Shown piece by piece: positions 4,350-35,533 of a stretch of DNA of 39,898 bases (its first letter is position 1; each line of letters begins with the position of its first letter). Below the pieces are notes generated by a model. That model did not search any database. It was not told the origin of the DNA and was given only the letters and a program-made list of their open reading frames with translations. This DNA comes from Candidatus Cloacimonadota bacterium (GTDB lineage: Bacteria > Cloacimonadota > Cloacimonadia > Cloacimonadales > Cloacimonadaceae). The translations under genes were made by a program, and so were the position numbers. The stretch lies in NCBI GenBank assembly GCA_029561955.1, contig JAKQWO010000003.1, forward strand, positions 1 through 39,898, in the 5' to 3' direction.

Positions 4350-6938
4350 TTACTTCATCAAAACCAGCTTGAGCAACTGATGCTCTTTTCCGGTGGTAAA
4401 ACGCAGGAGGTAGATTCCAGAGCTGAGCTGTTTCCCAGATGCGTCTTTGCCATCCCAGCTTAATTGGTGCTCTCCGTGTGTAAAAGCACCATTGGCCAGG
4501 GTTCTCACCTTCTGCCCGCGGCAGTTAAAGATTTCTAAACGCACCCGGGCTGCTTTTGCCAGGCTGAACTCTAGAGTAGTGGATGGCTTAAATGGATTGG
4601 GTTTGGCGCAGATGCTCATGGGTGCAGCGGGCAAGATCAGATCATCCTGACTGGAAGTGTGATGAATGATGTTGCTAAAGGCGAAGTCGGAGATGTTTTC
4701 CTGATCATACACAGCCACAACTGCATATTGATACTCACCAGCCTGAGAGGGTGGCCAGAGCGGGTCGTAGAAGCAGAGTGAATCAACGGGTTCAGGATTG
4801 AGCAGCAGCCACTGGCCGGGATCGGCAATATCATCCTGATTCAGTCTCCAGAGCCTAAAGCCCGATAACTGGCGGCTCTGTGAGCATTCCGGGTGTTGCC
4901 AACTGATGAGAACCTGATCCTGAGCTCCATCCATACCCGGCAGCAAGGCAGCCTGCACTTCGGTGGGTGCCAGCATGACTGTCAGCACAAAATCCTGGTT
5001 GAGGTCTTGGTTGGCAATGACGGTGATGCTGATGCTGTTGCTTTGATAGTAGGGATGGCTGCAGGTGATGGTGTAGGAGCCATAGTGGACATCTGGGATG
5101 CAGTAGTAACCGCTTGAATCGCTCAGCACTTGAAAGGGGCCAAAACCTGCGCTGGATGAGACAGACAACAGCGCTCCTTCAATGGGTTCGCCGTTGAGAT
5201 TACTGATGTTTCCCAGGATCCGCCCGTCTGTAAAGCGTTGAACCACAGGCGAAAATGCAGGTACGGACTGACTAACGTTATTGTATTGGGTAGCAACGGC
5301 ATAGATGTATTCACCTGAGGGTAGGCTGTCCCAGCCGGTGTCCTGATAGCTGCGGGCGTCGGCAGGCACACTGGATAAGAGATTCCATGTATCAGGCGAG
5401 TTCTGTTGTGAGGGCTGCATTCGGTAGATGATAAAGCCGGTTTGGGCTCTTGTTGGTGCGGATTTCTGTTTTGACGAGAGATTCAGCCTCGTTCCCTGGC
5501 TCCAAGTCCAGGATACAATGCTGCAATCGTTGGCGTCTGAGACGGTAACGCTCACATTCTGAGGACTTATGATCGTCAAGTCGGCAAGAGGGATGTTTCC
5601 CAGGTCCAGATTAGCAGTGGTGGTATTGAAGCTTCCGAAGAAATCCTGGTATCCGGGTGCTGAGATGAAGTAATCAAAGGCACAATTTACCGCCACACCG
5701 AAGAATCTGAAGTGGCCAGTATTGTCAGTATTTCCCGTGTAAAAATCATCACCGATGAGAATGATTGATGCGTCAGCTATGCCACAGTTGCTGTTTTCAC
5801 TGCTGACCACCCTGCCGCTTACCTGCACCGATGGATTGGCGGGCTGGATATTCAGAATGGCTCCGTGATAACTGTTGAAGCTGTGACCGGCGGGATTGAG
5901 ATTGTCGAGGTAAAAGAAACCGTTATAGTCGCCTCCCCAGCCCCAGTTGAAGTGGAAGTAATCATTGTTTTGATAGCCGTCCACGTTGAAAGCATGTCCT
6001 GAAGTACTGCTATAACCTTCGTATACGATGGGGCGTCCCGCATCCAGATTGGCCCGCAACATAGCGCTCCATTCACTTGGGTAGTAATTGATTTTCTGAG
6101 CATAGGTGCAGGGAGCATAGCTGAAGTATTGTGTCAATGCGGTGGCAGCATCATCGAGATAAGCACCGGAGCCGTTGGGACTGTATTGCATATCAGTTGC
6201 AACACCGCAATGGTAAAGCAGCAGCGGGATATCCATGTTACCAACAGGACAGGTGTTGGGCATATTATTCCAATTGTAGGTGGTCTGCCCAAAATTCGCT
6301 GTAAGCACTCCGTAGCTTCCGGCATAATAGCTATGGGAGCCGGTGCCCTGCAGGGGACAAGCCCAGTATCTCATTACCTGAGCCATGGCGACGGCTGTGC
6401 AACCCGCCCAGACGTGACCACCCGGACCCTCCGCATCCTCTGGACACAGTATATTGTAAGGTTCTCCCTGATTCCATATGGTTGTGAGCAGAGGGGCGAC
6501 GCTTCTGGATTGGTTCCTTTCCGGCAAAGTGCCCTCTAAGAGCGTGTCCCATGCTGCCCTGGTTTCGCTGTTGTCCAGTTTTTGGGTTCGGATCTGCCAA
6601 AGCTCTTCCAGTAGAGCTTCAATCCAGGCTGACACAGCGGGTGAATCAATCGGATAGTTGAATTGAGATTGGAGGTCATAACCCAAGATGGGATGCGCTG
6701 CGTCATCCCCCGCGACCAAAACAAAGCCGGCATTTTCGGTATGGATGAGCCAGATCAAGGGATGGCCTTCACGCTTGAAACTCTGGATATCTGCAACCCT
6801 GAGAGGATTGGCAGCACCGGAATTGTAGGCCCACCAGCGGCCAGCCGCCTCTACTGCCTGATCTACCGTGACGGGAACGCCAGGAAGCAGGCTGATGGCG
6901 ACAGCTAACATGACTGTCAATAATACTAACTTTCTCAT
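4350..6938 (-). CDS. secreted C10-family (streptopain-like) cysteine protease with FlgD-like tail
   Basis: 862 aa from ATG 6938, preceded by GAGG; the start also places the signal peptide (MRKLVLL, hydrophobic to about residue 20) at the N-terminus. Residues ~20-150 are an inhibitory propeptide typical of the family (WLIHTENAGFVLVAGDDAAHPILGY). The catalytic domain shows the nucleophile Cys180 in WAGCTAVAMAQVMRYW, His315 in TSGHAFNVDGY, and the FNWGWGG motif at about 330-336. After it come a carboxypeptidase-regulatory-like repeat (about 378-450), FN3-like segments, a second regulatory-like repeat (about 585-650), and the tail KPNPFKPSTTLEFSL...WDGKDASG...SSGIYLLRF. It is probably an exported protease held at the surface; specificity is unknown. 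It is a separate transcription unit with a candidate promoter at 6999-7027. Confidence 0.9.
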   Translation of the reverse strand: MRKLVLLTVMLAVAISLLPGVPVTVDQAVEAAGRWWAYNSGAANPLRVADIQSFKREGHPLIWLIHTENAGFVLVAGDDAAHPILGYDLQSQFNYPIDSPAVSAWIEALLEELWQIRTQKLDNSETRAAWDTLLEGTLPERNQSRSVAPLLTTIWNQGEPYNILCPEDAEGPGGHVWAGCTAVAMAQVMRYWACPLQGTGSHSYYAGSYGVLTANFGQTTYNWNNMPNTCPVGNMDIPLLLYHCGVATDMQYSPNGSGAYLDDAATALTQYFSYAPCTYAQKINYYPSEWSAMLRANLDAGRPIVYEGYSSTSGHAFNVDGYQNNDYFHFNWGWGGDYNGFFYLDNLNPAGHSFNSYHGAILNIQPANPSVQVSGRVVSSENSNCGIADASIILIGDDFYTGNTDNTGHFRFFGVAVNCAFDYFISAPGYQDFFGSFNTTTANLDLGNIPLADLTIISPQNVSVTVSDANDCSIVSWTWSQGTRLNLSSKQKSAPTRAQTGFIIYRMQPSQQNSPDTWNLLSSVPADARSYQDTGWDSLPSGEYIYAVATQYNNVSQSVPAFSPVVQRFTDGRILGNISNLNGEPIEGALLSVSSSAGFGPFQVLSDSSGYYCIPDVHYGSYTITCSHPYYQSNSISITVIANQDLNQDFVLTVMLAPTEVQAALLPGMDGAQDQVLISWQHPECSQSRQLSGFRLWRLNQDDIADPGQWLLLNPEPVDSLCFYDPLWPPSQAGEYQYAVVAVYDQENISDFAFSNIIHHTSSQDDLILPAAPMSICAKPNPFKPSTTLEFSLAKAARVRLEIFNCRGQKVRTLANGAFTHGEHQLSWDGKDASGKQLSSGIYLLRFTTGKEHQLLKLVLMK

Positions 6939-6998
6939 GATCGAACCTCGCAAAATTTCTGTGCAGCCCAAGATAGTTATCTCAAAGCTCGCGGTGGC

Positions 6999-7027: not shown

Positions 7028-7077
7028 GTTTATTTTTGGGTTTCAGGATTGATCTGCGGTAGGACTGCTCTGTACAA

Positions 7078-7589
7078 CAGCGCTTCCCACCTACATCTTG
7101 GGATGACTCACAACTCACTACTCACAACTCACAACTGCAGCGGAGCTGCCATAGCGAGCGCCCGTACGGGGGTGCTCTGTACAACAGCGCTTCCCATCTA
7201 CACCTTGGGATGACTCACAACTCACCACTCACAACTCACAACTGCAGCGGAGCTGCAACAGCGAGCACCCGTACAATGGCCTTACATCCCCGAAACAGCG
7301 CTTTCCATCTACATCCTGGGATTACTCTCAACTCACTACTCACAACTCACAACTGCAGCGGAGCTGCCACAGCGAGCGCCCGTACAATGCCTTACATCCC
7401 CGAAACAGCGCTTTCCATCTACATCCTGGGATGACTCACAACTCACTACTCACAACTCACAACTGCAGCGGAGCTGCCACAGCGAGCACCCGTACAATGG
7501 CCTTACATCCCCGAAACAGCGCTTCCCATCTACATCCTGGGATGACTCACAACTCACAACTCACAACTCACAACTGCAGCGGAGCTGCC
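7078..7589. repeat. five ~110-bp imperfect tandem repeats
   Basis: Units begin at 7078, 7185, 7296, 7406 and 7517 (periods 107, 111, 110, 111); the last is cut short. Each has CAGCGCTTCCCATCTACA, CTTGGGATGACT, a run of 7-bp ACTCACA/ACTACTCACA steps, CAACTGCAGCGGAGCTGCC, AGCGAGCRCCCGTACAATGG and CCTTACATCCCCGAAA. There is no constant short repeat with unique spacers, no cas gene nearby, and stop codons interrupt the frames, so neither a CRISPR nor a coding role is supported. Confidence 0.85.
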
Positions 7590-7594
7590 CTTAA

Positions 7595-7891
7595 TTACCC
7601 CTGAAAAACCGATAATATATCGAAACATTTGACTTTTTGAAAAGGTTCACCTCCTTTCTTGGCTCTTCCCCGCCCAAACGTGTAACCTCCTGCAATCCTA
7701 TGCCATTCCTGCTCGATGGAGGAGGAGCCGAGCAGGGGCAGGGCAGGGACGCCGCATAAACAGCGGCTTTGAGGGGTATCAAAAAAGGCCGTTTCCTGTT
7801 ACTTTTTCTCGCCCGACAGTCAAATTTTGCAAAAAAGACCCACTTTTCCCTACACCCGTGCTCGGAAATGAACTCCTACTAAAATAGTAGG
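7595..7891 (-). repeat. 300-bp structured repeat, copy A
   Basis: Read on the minus strand it is collinear, at roughly 80-85% identity by eye, with 34868-35170. It starts with the palindrome CCTACTAAAATAGTAGG (7875-7891). It then carries AAAAGTGGG, CAGTAACAGGAAA, the hairpin GCCGC-TGTTTAT-GCGGC, the hairpin CCTGCTC...GAGCAGG, GGTTACACGTTTGGGCGGGG, GAGGTGAACCTTTTC and CAAATGTTTCGA. Stem arms are identical in both copies while the loops vary. A 63-codon frame is open through part of it, but the differences between copies are not concentrated at third codon positions, so I read it as a structured repeat rather than a gene. Confidence 0.75.
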
Positions 7892-7992
7892 TGTTTGAAA
7901 GCTTCTTGTGTTTTTGCTTCTATCCACCCTTGATTGAACTTGAGCCTTCTATATTACACTTTCAGGCACACAAAAGATAATGGAGCCAGGCA

Positions 7993-8901
<909 letters not shown>

Positions 8902-8946
8902 TTTGTACCTCCAGTAGTACTAAGGTTTTTATAAGTGATGGAACCC

Positions 8947-8976
8947 TGCTCAGGTGGCATGGCAAGCACTTGAGCA
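8947..8976. repeat. intergenic hairpin between FGE-like genes
   Basis: TGCTCAGGTG / CACTTGAGCA with a 10-nt loop (one G-T wobble), 3' of the gene at 9020 and 5' of the one at 8901. It matches the hairpins at 9998-10027 and 2962-2991. Confidence 0.6.
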
Positions 8977-9019
8977 AGATATAAATACCGATTTGTAGTC
9001 ATGAGTCCAAGGTCTGTCA

Positions 9020-9952
9020 TCAGTCAATGGTTGATCTGCAGAGGCGGAACCCGTTGATTGGGGCACTGTAGTATGGGTTGTTGTTCGAACGTATGGACAC
9101 ACGACAGGATTTTGCATTGTAAATCCAGCAACCGCCACGAGCCACTCGTCCCCAGGATTCTGCCTGGCTTGCACCGGTGGGATTGTCCTCTGGGCTATTG
9201 CTGTAGTATCTCCGGCCATACCAATCCCAGCACCATTCTTTGACGTTGCCGCTCATGTCGTAAATTTTGAGGCGGTTAGGGGCTTTGGACCCGACAGAAC
9301 TGCTGCCCCAACCCGTTTCATCTTCATTGCCATACCAAGCTACGGCGTCGGGATCGTCTGAACCGCTGTAAAGATAGTCAGGGTTGTTGGTAGCTCCGCG
9401 GGCAGCGTATTCCCATTCTGCTTCGGTGGGCAACCTGTAGCCATTGGCATGAAAGTCGCAGATGACTTCGTCCCAGGTATCGATGTCTGGATGATCATAG
9501 TCAGTGGGAACCTCTCCCCAGTCTGCGGGATTTGTGCTTCCGGCTATCGTATAGCAGGGAGTGAGCCCTTCTGCCAGACTGCGCAGATTGCAGTATTTGA
9601 TGGCGGCATACCAGGAAACATTGTAGGCAGGATAGCTTTTCCCCAGTCCATATTTGGCTCTCCAGGGCTCGCTGGGCTGCATGTATTTGGTGTATTCCGT
9701 CTGAGTTACCAGATATTTGCCGAGGTAAAAAGGTCTCAGGGTGACACTGTGTGTTGGCAGCTCATCATCATATTCATTCCCGAAATTATCCACCACACCT
9801 CTGGTGTTGCCCATGGTAAAAGTGCCGCCGGGGACATGGATCATCTTACCGGCAGAAATGGTCGGTTCGGTGGTCTTTTTGTCACAACTCATGGTCGTTA
9901 TAAGCATCACAAGGGCAGTGACAAAGATCAGTACCAATCTCAACTTACGCAT
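9020..9952 (-). CDS. FGE-sulfatase (SUMF1-type) domain lipoprotein, paralogue 3
   Basis: 310 aa; ATG 9952 preceded by GGAGGTACAAA. MRK leader, Cys23 (TTMSC). Blocks: KMIHVPGGTFTMGNTRG, PTHSVTLRPFYLGKYLVTQTEYTKYM, YPAYNVSWYAAIKYCN, GYRLPTEAEWEYAARGATNNPDYLYSG, IYDMSGNVKEWCWDWYGR, RVARGGCWIYNAKSCRVSIR and GFRLCRSTID. Variable segments between paralogues fall in loops (after the first block, after WGEVP, and between RGG and GFR), as expected of a diversifying C-type-lectin-like fold. It is the middle gene of the three-gene array, about 120 bp from each neighbour, with a hairpin on each side. Enzymatic formylglycine formation is not supported by the residues. Confidence 0.85.
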   Translation of the reverse strand: MRKLRLVLIFVTALVMLITTMSCDKKTTEPTISAGKMIHVPGGTFTMGNTRGVVDNFGNEYDDELPTHSVTLRPFYLGKYLVTQTEYTKYMQPSEPWRAKYGLGKSYPAYNVSWYAAIKYCNLRSLAEGLTPCYTIAGSTNPADWGEVPTDYDHPDIDTWDEVICDFHANGYRLPTEAEWEYAARGATNNPDYLYSGSDDPDAVAWYGNEDETGWGSSSVGSKAPNRLKIYDMSGNVKEWCWDWYGRRYYSNSPEDNPTGASQAESWGRVARGGCWIYNAKSCRVSIRSNNNPYYSAPINGFRLCRSTID

Positions 9953-9997
9953 TTTGTACCTCCAGTAGTACTAAGGTTTTTATAAGTGATGGAACCC

Positions 9998-10027
9998 TGC
10001 TCAAGTGGGATGGCAAGCACTTGAGCA
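9998..10027. repeat. intergenic hairpin between FGE-like genes
   Basis: Perfect 10-bp stem TGCTCAAGTG / CACTTGAGCA, 10-nt loop, between the stop of the gene at 10070 and the start at 9952. The flanks (GATGGAACCC, AAGGTTTTTATAAG) are shared with 8920-8946, so the hairpin is part of the duplicated cassette. Confidence 0.65.
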
Positions 10028-10069
10028 AGATGTGGACATCTATTTGTAATCATGAGACAAAGCTGGGCA

Positions 10070-10993
10070 TCAGTCAATCTTAGACCGGCAGAGACGGAAT
10101 CCGTAGGAGCCATCGCCGTAGCATGGGAACCCCTCATCACGGTAGAACACAATACATCTCCAGGCATCGGCAGACCAGTGGCCACCGCGGGTCACGCGTG
10201 TATCAAAACCAGCAGCCGGCCCGGTGGGATTGTCCTGAGGGCTTCTCGCATAGTAAGTAGCGTCAAACCAATCCCAGCACCATTCCTGGATGTTGCCGCT
10301 CAGATCGTAAATGCCAAGCGCATTGGGAGCTTTCTTTGCAACAGGATGGGATTTCAGCTCCACGTGATCATCTCCGATCGGTTGATTCTCATACCAAGCC
10401 ACAGCGTCGATATTGTCAGAGCCACTATAACGATAATCGGGGGTGTTGGTAGCACCGCGGGCGGCATATTCCCATTCTGCCTCGGTGGGCAATCTGTAGC
10501 CATTGGCCTCCCAATTGCAGGTGACTCTATCCCAGGCTCCTGTGTTTGGGTGATCGAAATCATCGGGAACTTCTCCCCAGTCAGCAGGATTGGTGCTCTC
10601 GGATATCGTGTAGCAGGGAGTAAGACCCTCTGCGATACTGCGAAGATTGCAGTATTTGATGACAGTATACCAGGTGATTCCATAGGCAGGATATCTGGCT
10701 CCCAAACCAAAAAGTTCTATCCAGGGGTCGTCCGGCTGCATGTATTTGGAAAACTCAGCTTGAGTCACCTCATATTTGCCGATGTAAAAAGGGTTCAGCG
10801 TGACTGTGTGGGTTGGTTGTGTGCCGTAAAATTCCAAATCCTTGGTATCCCCCATGGTGAAGGTGCCGCCGGGGACGAGGACCATCTCACCGGGCTTAAA
10901 CGTAGGCTCGGTGGTCTTTTCACCGCAACTCGTGGTCGTTAAAAGCATCATGACGGCAGCAACAAAGATCAGGATCGATCCAATCTTACGCAT
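10070..10993 (-). CDS. FGE-sulfatase (SUMF1-type) domain lipoprotein, paralogue 4
   Basis: 307 aa; ATG 10993 with GGAGGTACGAG upstream. MRK leader, Cys23 (TTTSC). Blocks: EMVLVPGGTFTMGDT, PTHTVTLNPFYIGKYEVTQAEFSKYM, YPAYGITWYTVIKYCN, GYRLPTEAEWEYAARGATNTPDYRYSG, GIYDLSGNIQEWCWDWFDATYY, RVTRGGHWSADAWRCIVFYR and GFRLCRSKID. First gene of the three-gene array, and the one with its own promoter and leader (10994-11149). The leader class matches that of paralogue 1 (3943) rather than those of its downstream neighbours, so the array mixes two upstream types. Function unknown; secretion to the periplasm or outer membrane as a lipoprotein is inferred. Confidence 0.85.
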   Translation of the reverse strand: MRKIGSILIFVAAVMMLLTTTSCGEKTTEPTFKPGEMVLVPGGTFTMGDTKDLEFYGTQPTHTVTLNPFYIGKYEVTQAEFSKYMQPDDPWIELFGLGARYPAYGITWYTVIKYCNLRSIAEGLTPCYTISESTNPADWGEVPDDFDHPNTGAWDRVTCNWEANGYRLPTEAEWEYAARGATNTPDYRYSGSDNIDAVAWYENQPIGDDHVELKSHPVAKKAPNALGIYDLSGNIQEWCWDWFDATYYARSPQDNPTGPAAGFDTRVTRGGHWSADAWRCIVFYRDEGFPCYGDGSYGFRLCRSKID

Positions 10994-30682: not shown

Positions 30683-33600
30683 TTACGTGGACAATATCCG
30701 CCGGTTTCCACGCGTAACCGCCTTCGCCAACTCCCTCCCATCGCACACCAGCACCACTTTTTGTGTCGTATTTACTAGCTTAGATGGTTTATGCGTAATT
30801 GCTGGAACGGTTTTCCTAACGTTGAAAGAGCCGCTATTAAGCGCATCTAGGAAGGGGACGCCAAGCTCCTTTACCCTGGATGCACGGATCACATATTCGT
30901 TGCGGCTTAAAGCCACTATGTTGCTGTCTGACGTATCGGTTCCCTTGCCTTCCACGAGCCCACCACGCCAGAACTTCTGTTTAGCGATAATAGCAACCTG
31001 AGCCGCACCCAGCGCGCCCACCAATGTGGCGAGCACAGGCGCATACCATGCCGGCTTAAGTGTAAGCGCATTCGTGATGCCTTCTGCAGTGTTTGAGACA
31101 GCGGAAGATATTTGCCTGCCTTGCTCCACTCTCTTCATTTGCCTTTGTTTTTCCGAGTATTCCTCTTCGATCTTTTCCTTTTCCTTAGCGAGCCAGGCCT
31201 CTGTTTTATGCTCTTTTTTAGCCCGTTTTTCAAGTTGTTTAAGCGCATGATCCCTTTCGGAGGCGAGGTTAGCATACAGTTGCTGCCAGATTGAAGCTAC
31301 CTGTTTTGAAAGGGTCTGGAATGTGTTGATGATTCTTGCCTGGTGGGCGGTAGGTATATCCAGGGCATCCATCATCCGACCGAAGATGTCTTTGCTAAAG
31401 CGGAAGTTGTCAAACTCAGCCTGCAGCTCATCGAGGTTTTGCTTCAGGATGACAGCCTTTTGTTCTTCAGTGATCTGCATTAGGTCGACGTCTTCCTCGA
31501 TGCGGGCTTTTTTCCAATCATAATAGCGTTCATCGCGGAACTTGACGGTCTCGTAGTAGGAGGCGGTATCGGACTCCCGATTCACCGCCAACTGTGCCGC
31601 CTGCGCCCGTTTTCGATAGATATCCAAAAGTCCCTGTTCTTCTTCGCTGATGACGCCATCTGCCTCCACGATAGCCTTCAATGCATCGTAGTATTCCCAC
31701 GCCTTGGAAGCGATCTCCGAGTAGGTCGCTATACCCAGCTCACGCAACTCCGCCAAGTGCCCCATCTCAGCGGCATACTCTTCCTCAAAGGCGATCAGCT
31801 CCCGCTTGTCCCACTCTTCTTTTTCTTTATCTAACTGCTTAATCTGATCCCGCTTCCACTCTTCAGAAAGACTCTCCTTCTTTGCCTGTTCCTCTATTTT
31901 ATTGAGTTTCCAGGAATAGTAGTCCTCCAAATAAAACCTCATTCTCTCGTAATGGGCTTCCTCTTCCTGATCTTCCCTCTCCTGATAGCGAGCCTTTATT
32001 TCCTCGACCTCGGCATCCCGCATCTTTTCGTATTTTTTAATCTTTTCCGCATCAGAAGGTATTTTGGGCTCATAGAGCTGAATCTTCTCCTGATACCTAA
32101 ACATCACGGCGGCAACTTCCTTGTTCATCCCCTCAGCAAGCCTTTCCATGACGAAATCATATTCGGCCAGTTCTCTATCGGCTGCAGCACGCCTGGACTT
32201 TCTGTCGTCACTGCTGTTATAGCCAGGGAGACGACCGGAGCTGGAATCGGAGCCAGAGCCAGCTTTCTCACCCTTCTCCTCATCTTTAGGAGCGATGACG
32301 CTGCTGTCAATGAGGTTACTCATTTCCACTATCTCTTTATTGATTTCCTGTATCTCGGCTTTATATTTCGCAATGGCCTCTATCAGCCGTTCTTCCCTAC
32401 GAGCATCCCCAGACTTTATCTTCTCTGTTTTTGGTATGCCGGGAGAATGTTGGCTTAATGGATCAGTTACTCCATAGCTAATTTGGGTTCGGAACTTCGT
32501 TCCCGCCTCAAACTCAGCCTGCAGAGTGGATAGCTCATTTTCCGCTTCCCTGAGCTTCTTAAATGTCTTGGCAAGGTCTTCTGCTCTTTCATCCATCACC
32601 GCCTTTTTAATGCTCTCGTTAATGTATTTCTGCAGGTTGTCCCTGGCTGTATCCAATGCCTTCGCTATATCTCGCCATGCAGACTTTTCCAGATCGATGC
32701 CTTTCAGATAGTTAGGATATTTTTCCATCAGGTCTTTGATAGTTTGCTGATACTTCTCATTTTCCTCTTTAGAGCGACTTTGCGTATGGTGCAGCTTCTC
32801 GTAAGTCAAGACAAGCTTTTCAAACTCTATCCTCTGATCCATGAGCGATTCTTTCACTGCAGCGATGCCGGATTTTGTTCCTGACAAGCGGTTAGCGAGG
32901 CTGGCTACCGCATTCGCCGCCGCCCCGAGAATAGGCGTGAGCTTACTCCCAATCGCTGCCTGCAGGCTCTCGATAGCGTCTTCCATATTCGCCACCGCAC
33001 CGGTGTAGCTTTCGCTCATCCGATCAGCCGATCCGGCGATACCTGCAGCGGAATCCGTAAAAGTAGAAAGCATAGCTTCCCTGAACTCCGGCAAGGTAAG
33101 CTTCGTCAGGTCATCGATGCCCTTGAAGGACTTGATCAGATTCAAAACACCCCGCTCTCTGAGTATATCCGCAGCTCCAACGCCACCCGCAAAAGCACGC
33201 CCCATCGCAGCAGCAGCTTCCACGACGTCCATCCCCATATAAGCGGCCAAGTCTGCGGCTGCGGTGATGGTGTCCTCGGCTTCGAGCCCGAATGCTTTCA
33301 ACGTAGCACCAGCTTCCACAACGCCCTTGAGCGTGGCGGGAGTATCTGCGGCTACCTGCCTAAACTTTTCAAAGGCTTCCGCAGCACGTCCAGAGTCCTG
33401 GTATAACGACTCTAAGCGCAACTGGAGCTGTTCGAAATCCGCGGCCACCTTGACGACAGGGGCTCCAATAGCATCCCAAGCCGCCGTTATTACTCTAAGA
33501 TATGCAGAAAGGCCATTGATAACGAACCCAAATTCCTTCACGTTATTCTTCATGGCCGCCCACTTAGAGGCTTGATCCTTGAAGTTAAACTGGATATTTG

Positions 33601-33712
33601 AGAAATCCGCATCAGCGTGGAGCTTATATTTCTCTTGGAGCTTGGCTATTACTTCATCAAGCTTTTCTTTACCAGTGAGTTCCAAGGAAATTATCAATTT
33701 TGGTTTTTGCAC
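30683..33712 (-). CDS. phage tail tape measure protein
   Basis: 1009 aa from GTG 33712, chosen for AAAGGA 7 nt upstream. Tape measure proteins set tail length and fill the tube. The N-terminal ~60-330 resembles the TP901/minor-tail region: AADFEQLQLRLESLYQDSGRAAEAF, ATLKGVVEAGATLKAFGL, AADLAAYMGMDVVEAAAAMGRAFAGGVGAADILRERGV (adjacent pieces). A long, charged, probably coiled-coil middle follows (~330-870), then a hydrophobic AVLATLVGALGAAQVAI segment (~905) and WRGGLVEGKGTDTSDSNIVALSRNEYVI. The downstream distal-tail genes are absent and gcvPA follows, so this is a remnant. Order chaperone pair, then tape measure matches siphophage-type tails. Confidence 0.88.
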   Translation of the reverse strand: MQKPKLIISLELTGKEKLDEVIAKLQEKYKLHADADFSNIQFNFKDQASKWAAMKNNVKEFGFVINGLSAYLRVITAAWDAIGAPVVKVAADFEQLQLRLESLYQDSGRAAEAFEKFRQVAADTPATLKGVVEAGATLKAFGLEAEDTITAAADLAAYMGMDVVEAAAAMGRAFAGGVGAADILRERGVLNLIKSFKGIDDLTKLTLPEFREAMLSTFTDSAAGIAGSADRMSESYTGAVANMEDAIESLQAAIGSKLTPILGAAANAVASLANRLSGTKSGIAAVKESLMDQRIEFEKLVLTYEKLHHTQSRSKEENEKYQQTIKDLMEKYPNYLKGIDLEKSAWRDIAKALDTARDNLQKYINESIKKAVMDERAEDLAKTFKKLREAENELSTLQAEFEAGTKFRTQISYGVTDPLSQHSPGIPKTEKIKSGDARREERLIEAIAKYKAEIQEINKEIVEMSNLIDSSVIAPKDEEKGEKAGSGSDSSSGRLPGYNSSDDRKSRRAAADRELAEYDFVMERLAEGMNKEVAAVMFRYQEKIQLYEPKIPSDAEKIKKYEKMRDAEVEEIKARYQEREDQEEEAHYERMRFYLEDYYSWKLNKIEEQAKKESLSEEWKRDQIKQLDKEKEEWDKRELIAFEEEYAAEMGHLAELRELGIATYSEIASKAWEYYDALKAIVEADGVISEEEQGLLDIYRKRAQAAQLAVNRESDTASYYETVKFRDERYYDWKKARIEEDVDLMQITEEQKAVILKQNLDELQAEFDNFRFSKDIFGRMMDALDIPTAHQARIINTFQTLSKQVASIWQQLYANLASERDHALKQLEKRAKKEHKTEAWLAKEKEKIEEEYSEKQRQMKRVEQGRQISSAVSNTAEGITNALTLKPAWYAPVLATLVGALGAAQVAIIAKQKFWRGGLVEGKGTDTSDSNIVALSRNEYVIRASRVKELGVPFLDALNSGSFNVRKTVPAITHKPSKLVNTTQKVVLVCDGRELAKAVTRGNRRILST

Positions 33713-34376: not shown

Positions 34377-34868
34377 TTATTTCACTGTTTTCACCGCCAA
34401 AGGCTCCCCACCCTGCGTCTGTAGCCTCTCGCTCATCCGATCAGCGATCAAACTCAGAAAATCCTCGTTTACCAGGTTATGGTCGTAATATACTCCGCTG
34501 CTAACTGTGGCCGTAAACTCTTTCTCACCATGCAGATTATATGCACCAATACGGGCATGCACATAACCTTCCCGCATCTGCATCAGAGGGATGTCGTAAG
34601 TAAAATTTGGGTAATTAGACCACATCCTTACTAACCCCGCTTCTTTCCCGTCAATGTCGTATTGAGAATCACTATTAAACAGTATCTCCGCAACATAGGA
34701 TGTGCCGAGAGCGGTATTTGAAGAGGGTAGGGCTTCAACTCTTACCCTGTTTGCATAAAGCTCGACAACGACGCCATCCGGTTCTTTCGGAATTTCCATA
34801 ATACTGCTAACCAAATCCGGCAGCCCCAGATTACGGAAAGTCGAGCTCAGAATATCCAGACCAATCAC
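34377..34868 (-). CDS. 5'-truncated phage tail-like protein
   Basis: 163 aa, not recognised by sequence. It lies directly upstream of the chaperone gene, where the major tail protein gene usually is, and reads as a beta-rich protein (GVVVELYANRVRVEAL, YVAEILFNSDSQYDIDG, EFTATVSSGVYYD) with a helical end (FLSLIADRMSERLQTQ). Its apparent GTG start (34868-34866) is formed where the 17-bp palindrome of the 300-bp repeat ends, so the real 5' part has probably been lost. Unlikely to make a working tail protein. Confidence 0.55.
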   Translation of the reverse strand: MIGLDILSSTFRNLGLPDLVSSIMEIPKEPDGVVVELYANRVRVEALPSSNTALGTSYVAEILFNSDSQYDIDGKEAGLVRMWSNYPNFTYDIPLMQMREGYVHARIGAYNLHGEKEFTATVSSGVYYDHNLVNEDFLSLIADRMSERLQTQGGEPLAVKTVK

Positions 34869-35170
34869 CTACTAAATTAGTAGGAGTTCCTTTTCAGACT
34901 TCGCCGCCGGGAAAAGTGGGTGTTTCTGAAAAATTTGACCTCTGCACGGGAAACAGTAACAGGAAAACGCCTTTTTCGACTCCCTTCAAAGCCGCTGTTT
35001 ATGCGGCGTCCCTGCCCCGCTCCTGCTCCGCCCCTCCTCCATCGAGCAGGAACGGCATAGGATACCAAGAGGTTACACGTTTGGGCGGGGAAGGCGCACA
35101 GAAAGAGGTGAACCTTTTCAAAAAGGCAAATGTTTCGAAAATTTCTCGCTTTTTCGGGGATAATTTAGGG
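34868..35170 (+). repeat. 300-bp structured repeat, copy B
   Basis: Inverted partner of 7595-7891. It begins with CCTACTAAATTAGTAGG (34868-34884). The GCCGC/GCGGC and CCTGCTC/GAGCAGG stems, GGTTACACGTTTGGGCGGGG and GAGGTGAACCTTTTC are retained. The first 60 bp after the palindrome are the most diverged, the central part the least. A frame is open through it from 34916, but the differences from copy A do not look selected at the protein level. Confidence 0.75.
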
Positions 35171-35303: not shown

Positions 35304-35491
35304 GGTCGGTCGCCGGACCGACCATGTATAGTCGCTCGCTGCGTGTACGGGCGCTCTCGTACGGGCGCTCGCCGAAGCGCCGGATGTACAAAGCCTCCCC
35401 GTATGGGCGCTCGCCAAAGCGCCGTTGTACTGAGGAAGCGAAAAGAAGAAAAGCTTGGTACCCGTACAGAAGCGGCGGTTCAGCGACCGCC
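35304..35491. repeat. cluster of four REP-like hairpins
   Basis: 35304-35323 (GGTCGGTC-GCCG-GACCGACC), 35364-35381 (GGCGCT-CGCCGA-AGCGCC), 35406-35423 (GGCGCT-CGCCAA-AGCGCC) and 35474-35491 (GGCGGT-TCAGCG-ACCGCC), most flanked by GTACGGG or GTACA. Stems change while pairing is kept. Relatives are at 2578, 2844 and 13858. Confidence 0.7.
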
Positions 35492-35498
35492 CGTACAC

Positions 35499-35533
35499 AA
35501 AAAATGAGCCAGCTCCGGGGTAAAAGCTGGCTC
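35499..35533 (-). terminator. intrinsic terminator of the 861-aa gene
   Basis: On the minus strand GAGCCAGC / GCTGGCTC (35533-35526 and 35513-35506) with a 12-nt loop, then A and six T (35504-35499). It begins 20 bp after the stop at 35553. Confidence 0.8.

Follow-up and report, generated by a model that had tools for sequence, protein, structure and literature searches.

A palindrome-tagged 300-bp intergenic repeat with inherited positions and a 10-kb exclusion zone in uncultured Cloacimonadota: a possible chromosome-organising site

The window analysed here, a stretch of 39,898 nucleotides from a Candidatus Cloacimonadota genome, carries two copies of a sequence of some 300 bp in opposite orientation, and the question raised by the locus is whether these represent an RNA gene, a mobile element or a site that serves the chromosome itself. 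The first-pass annotation had described the copies as collinear and as bounded by a 17-bp palindrome, CCTACTA-N3-TAGTAGG, and both statements hold. Copy 1 spans 34863-35169 on the plus strand (~307 bp) and copy 2 spans 7589-7896 on the minus strand (~308 bp), and the two display 82% identity over 311 columns with 3 gap positions (BLASTN, E ~1e-84). Both start with AA[AT]CACCTACTA followed by the palindrome, which has no strand of its own and is located at 34868-34884 in copy 1 (CCTACTA-AAT-TAGTAGG) and at 7875-7891 in copy 2. The boundaries were set from an alignment of 39-41 copies of the same genome, which places the left end of copy 1 at the AAT/CACCTACTA junction and its right end near ATAATTTAGG. 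To the right, irregular homology continues for up to ~30 bp beyond the set boundary in the family alignment, and to the left homology reaches ~55 bp further in a young subfamily to which copy 2 belongs.

Three inverted repeats lie within the body, all given here for the plus strand of copy 1. A long-distance repeat has its 5' arm, GAAAAATTTGAC, at 34928-34939, and the partner of this arm, GGCAAATGTTTC, at 35125-35136; the 5' arm sequence is kept in three species and the arms pair without covariation. The central repeat, GCCGC-N7-GCGGC (34991-35007), contains a cross-species block, TTYATGCGGC, and pairs in 97% of cells with zero pairs changed on both sides. The second repeat, CCTGCTC-N15-GAGCAGG (35022-35050), pairs in 96% of cells, likewise with no covariation. 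The latter two are found in both window copies. The internal hairpins proposed earlier stand as inverted repeats, but their identical arms amount to a conserved sequence block and do not testify to covariation. It was also proposed that recombination between the copies could invert the 27-kb interval that separates them, and this is possible.

Several other features were noted in the window. The right end of copy 2 directly meets a tandem array at 7076-7589, in which a 111-bp unit containing ACTCACA heptamers recurs 4.7 times (91% matches). Two further dispersed intergenic repeats, one based on GTACGGGCG[CG]TCGC and the other on CACGAATTACACGAATT / CACGGATG, are present at 35320-35500 and in the right flanks of many copies, and often adjoin elements. 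Copy 1 is adjoined by an ORF of 1009 aa (30683-33712) with a sub-threshold match to the phage tape measure protein PF20155, possibly a prophage remnant. Three adjacent minus-strand lipoprotein-like ORFs with similar N-termini are found at 7993-10993; the two of these that were scanned are paralogues of the formylglycine-generating-enzyme type (PF03781). A secreted C10 peptidase with a Spi-type inhibitor domain (PF13734) and a Por secretion tail is encoded at 4350-6971.

The two copies belong to a large family. In the source genome (G000, 2.13 Mb), 40 long BLASTN matches with 79-86% identity to copy 1 were obtained, the query excluded, and these are nearly gapless with lengths of 305-308 bp, apart from one of 317 bp. 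A family profile, built from sequence only, identified 58 positions in G000, of which some are truncated where a contig stops, 76 in the congener G003 and many in the congener G002, so that further copies do exist in the same and in related genomes. With ~40 BLASTN matches and 58 profile positions in one genome, a chance origin of the likeness between copies 1 and 2 is excluded. The same profile search found zero copies in three other congeners and in six genomes from other genera. When the palindrome alone was searched for in 50 genomes of the family, it was found only in G000, G002 and G003, together with one isolated match. Searches of phages, plasmids and IMG/VR yielded no copy of the element, and no report of repeats of this type in Cloacimonadota emerged from a literature search. 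Lone palindromes lacking an element in G002 and G003 were considered and rejected, as the motif is symmetric and those examined have an element on their other side. The left palindrome is absent from roughly 20 G003 copies; of twelve such copies inspected, ~7 have a right-end palindrome (...CAAATAAAATAACGCCTAC...) and the rest have neither. This right-end form is represented by L096 and L099 in G000 and by L238, L242, L243, L246, L247 and L250 in G003. In five copies (L067 and L019 in G000, L191 in G002, L126 and L057 in G003) the left palindrome is preceded, at a distance of ~24 bp, by another that is degenerate in part, which looks like a tandem duplication of the palindrome unit.

The elements sit mostly at sites inherited from a common ancestor. 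G000 copies lie between genes or overlap only short, probably spurious ORFs, and G003 copies lie between genes except for six that overlap short ORFs of 91-171 codons. Orthologous sites were compared by taking G000 and G002 copies (label prefixes A and B; C denotes G003) for which the genes on either side map together within the 772 kb of G003 analysed, with G003 intergenic regions ≥100 bp as background. Thirteen of 14 distinct mappable sites (~93%) were occupied in G003, as compared with 37 elements in 180 background intergenic regions (~20%; p ~1e-8; some sites were counted from both A and B and are not fully independent), and at 11 of the 13 occupied sites the orientation was the same. In G003, the orthologue of the gene adjacent to copy 1 (L178) has an element just downstream, whereas that of the peptidase gene adjacent to copy 2 (L179) has none upstream. 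Inversions of the element between orthologous sites were observed for A_L002/B_L117, A_L011/C_L126, A_L027/C_L051, A_L069/B_L109 and A_L013/L191. No clear rule was found for orientation relative to genes or to neighbouring copies.

Despite this positional conservation, the sequences do not follow descent by site, and the copies are homogenised within each species, a case of concerted evolution. Orthologous copies share 49-62% identity, as compared with 53-57% for random interspecies pairs and own-species means of 68-78%. Within a species the copies are alike and mosaic. In G000, linkage between variable sites, measured as r2, drops from 0.24 at <5 bp to ~0.05 beyond 80 bp, a decay matched by 0 of 1000 permutations, and all four combinations (gametes) are present in 5199 of 6105 site pairs (85%). 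The decay of linkage disequilibrium with distance points to gene conversion among the copies, although recurrent mutation may contribute.

The spacing of the family is equally distinctive. The 58 same-contig neighbour gaps in G003 have a mean of 26 kb and a minimum of 9,831 bp. Gaps below 9.8 kb were thus not observed, as compared with 19.8 expected at random, and under a stricter null, in which copies may fall in intergenic regions alone, 12 close gaps are still predicted and none of 20000 draws gave zero. An exponential with a shift of 9.5 kb fits the gap distribution (KS p 0.79), while the unshifted exponential is rejected (p 1e-5). As the first genome search had scored only part of its first-look candidates, 772 kb of G003 were re-scanned exhaustively with a retrained profile (nhmmer --max); the same copies were recovered, all at 240-300 bits, and no further copies, fragments or relics were found in these 772 kb. 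In G002 the shortest gap in an incomplete list of copies is 9.5 kb. In G000, where contigs often end at copies and spacing is therefore less reliable, it is 13.6 kb, except for one degenerate copy located 0.5 kb from an intact one. Selection against close pairs, between which recombination deletes or inverts the DNA, might produce such a pattern in an ordinary dispersed repeat with no role of its own; the copies clearly recombine with each other, and depletion of close pairs is what would be expected. However, the cut-off is sharp (no gap below 9.8 kb against 12 at 10 to 15 kb) and applies also to neighbours that face opposite ways, for which inversion would be the sole outcome. Together with the conservation of position and the absence of relics, which favour a function, this makes a role-free repeat an improbable account.

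A structured RNA, one of the two readings offered by the first-pass annotation, is not supported. Changes on both sides of the four candidate helices were fewer than in shuffled controls, the palindrome alone displayed no covariation across species, and when all column pairs were scanned species by species, linkage was mostly short-range and Watson-Crick pairs were few and scattered. The predicted folding is not stronger on the plus strand (mean z -1.2, as compared with -1.9 on the minus strand), and Rfam returned no match. The conserved central block and inverted repeats would suit a multicopy non-coding RNA gene, as would the terminator-like GCCC-N-GGGC-ACTTTTTT in which some copies finish. 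The idea that the element generally ends on the right in an RNA terminator was nevertheless rejected: at the A_L067/C_L130/B_L116 locus all three species have the element directly beside the same terminator, and that terminator belongs to the neighbouring gene. An RNA gene is accordingly regarded as very unlikely. The palindrome, which over the three species is conserved more than any other part of the family, itself argues for recognition of the duplex. Its two arms vary independently, and pair 6 over the three species is T-A in 50 cases, C.A in 21, T.G in 17 and C-G in 5; since C.A is as common as T.G, and an RNA stem would avoid C.A, the palindrome is read as a double-stranded half-site rather than as a stem, and is predicted to be, probably, a protein site on double-stranded DNA. 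As in the first-pass annotation, no coding signature was seen. In the element alignment, lengths of 305-308 bp, single-base indels and variable blocks that alter codon positions 1 and 2 indicate, from a reading of the alignment alone, that the element is probably not protein-coding.

The other early suggestion, a non-autonomous mobile element, fared better and is the main rival here. It would be moved in trans by a recombinase or transposase with cis target immunity over ~10 kb, as is known for Mu, Tn7 and Tn3, with old insertions staying where they are and overwritten by gene conversion. The young subfamily comprises ~8-10 copies of 90% identity at scattered loci, and as these have flanking sequence in common, the 55-bp left extension, mobility is indicated. 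Sites have been gained or lost between species, with the A_L013 site empty in G003 (its flanks align too loosely for the junction to be read), and the inversions at orthologous sites, a hard-core spacing compatible with an immunity radius and the degenerate state of one member of the only close pair in G000 all agree with transposition. Conversely, no terminal inverted repeats were seen, as self-BLAST matches only the palindrome to itself and not the two element ends, and a target-site duplication is not demonstrable. None of the copies in the three genomes was seen to carry an ORF, no decayed copy is present in 772 kb of G003, and almost all mapped sites are common to the species compared. 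A Y1 transposase as the mover was rejected, PF01797 being absent from G000, a 99.5% complete MAG; weak matches occur only in G002 and G003, to Y1-like proteins of 224 aa. The element does resemble MITEs, including palindrome-associated IS200/IS605 derivatives, in its non-autonomous size, end palindrome and AA-rich left junction, but it departs from them in lacking visible TIRs, relics and a Y1 transposase in G000, and in being retained vertically. The data support a repeat that is dispersed, non-coding and in part mobile, but it does not match a classical MITE, and a mobile element with target immunity appears rather unlikely as the explanation.

The family shares with ERIC/BOX/bcr1-type repeats its short, non-coding, intergenic nature, tens of copies, restriction to one clade, mosaic copies and an autonomous partner that is not found. 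It differs from them in its length of ~307 bp, in its single palindrome at one end and in the positions kept between species, and we know of no report of a comparable 10-kb exclusion zone for such families. REP sequences, which are associated with RAYT, have the palindrome hallmark and the intergenic place in common with it; here, however, the palindrome always accompanies a 290-bp body and a RAYT-like match is absent in G000. Chromosome-organiser sites such as matS, parS and those of Noc and SlmA are palindromic double-stranded sites of 13-16 bp with known binding proteins. The family resembles these in its repeated palindromic dsDNA sites, non-random spacing in the tens of kb and vertical retention, and differs in having a 300-bp body and a protein that is putative.

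The kept positions, the homogenised sequence, the conservation of the palindrome at the dsDNA level and the sharp exclusion zone suggest a functional chromosomal site, and we infer that a protein binds it, that the copies act as anchors and that selection has produced the spacing. The reading that we favour, at a probability of about 0.4, is a chromosome-organising site of ~307 bp of double-stranded DNA with a palindrome bound by a dimeric protein and copies that act as spaced anchors. Each chromosome within a small Cloacimonadota clade would carry ~58-76 or more of these sites; most likely, a dimeric DNA-binding protein would recognise the 17-bp palindrome, perhaps using the GAAATATTTGAC/GTCAAATATTTC repeats as well. 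Bound copies would constitute anchor points for loops, domains or segregation, anchors less than ~10 kb apart would not be tolerated, which would create the exclusion zone, and gene conversion would keep the copies alike within each species. Against this organiser reading, the body far exceeds known organiser sites in size, orientation follows no rule, gains and losses of sites and the flanking sequence common to young copies point to mobility, and up to ~20 G003 copies lack the left-end palindrome, those inspected having it mostly at the right end.

Intergenic repeats in bacteria are usually viewed as the remains of transposons. Positions kept between species, homogenisation within species and a sharp 10-kb exclusion, combined in one family, call instead for a role in chromosome architecture or for a mechanism of transposition immunity, and the palindrome and the countable sites make both readings directly testable. 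Somewhat more tentatively than the organiser reading itself, we propose that these repeats may constitute an undescribed class of palindrome-tagged 300-bp chromosome-organising sites in uncultured Cloacimonadota, a phylum whose chromosome biology is little known. Each genome would have 60-80 such sites, separated by at least 10 kb, retained where the ancestor had them and kept alike through gene conversion.
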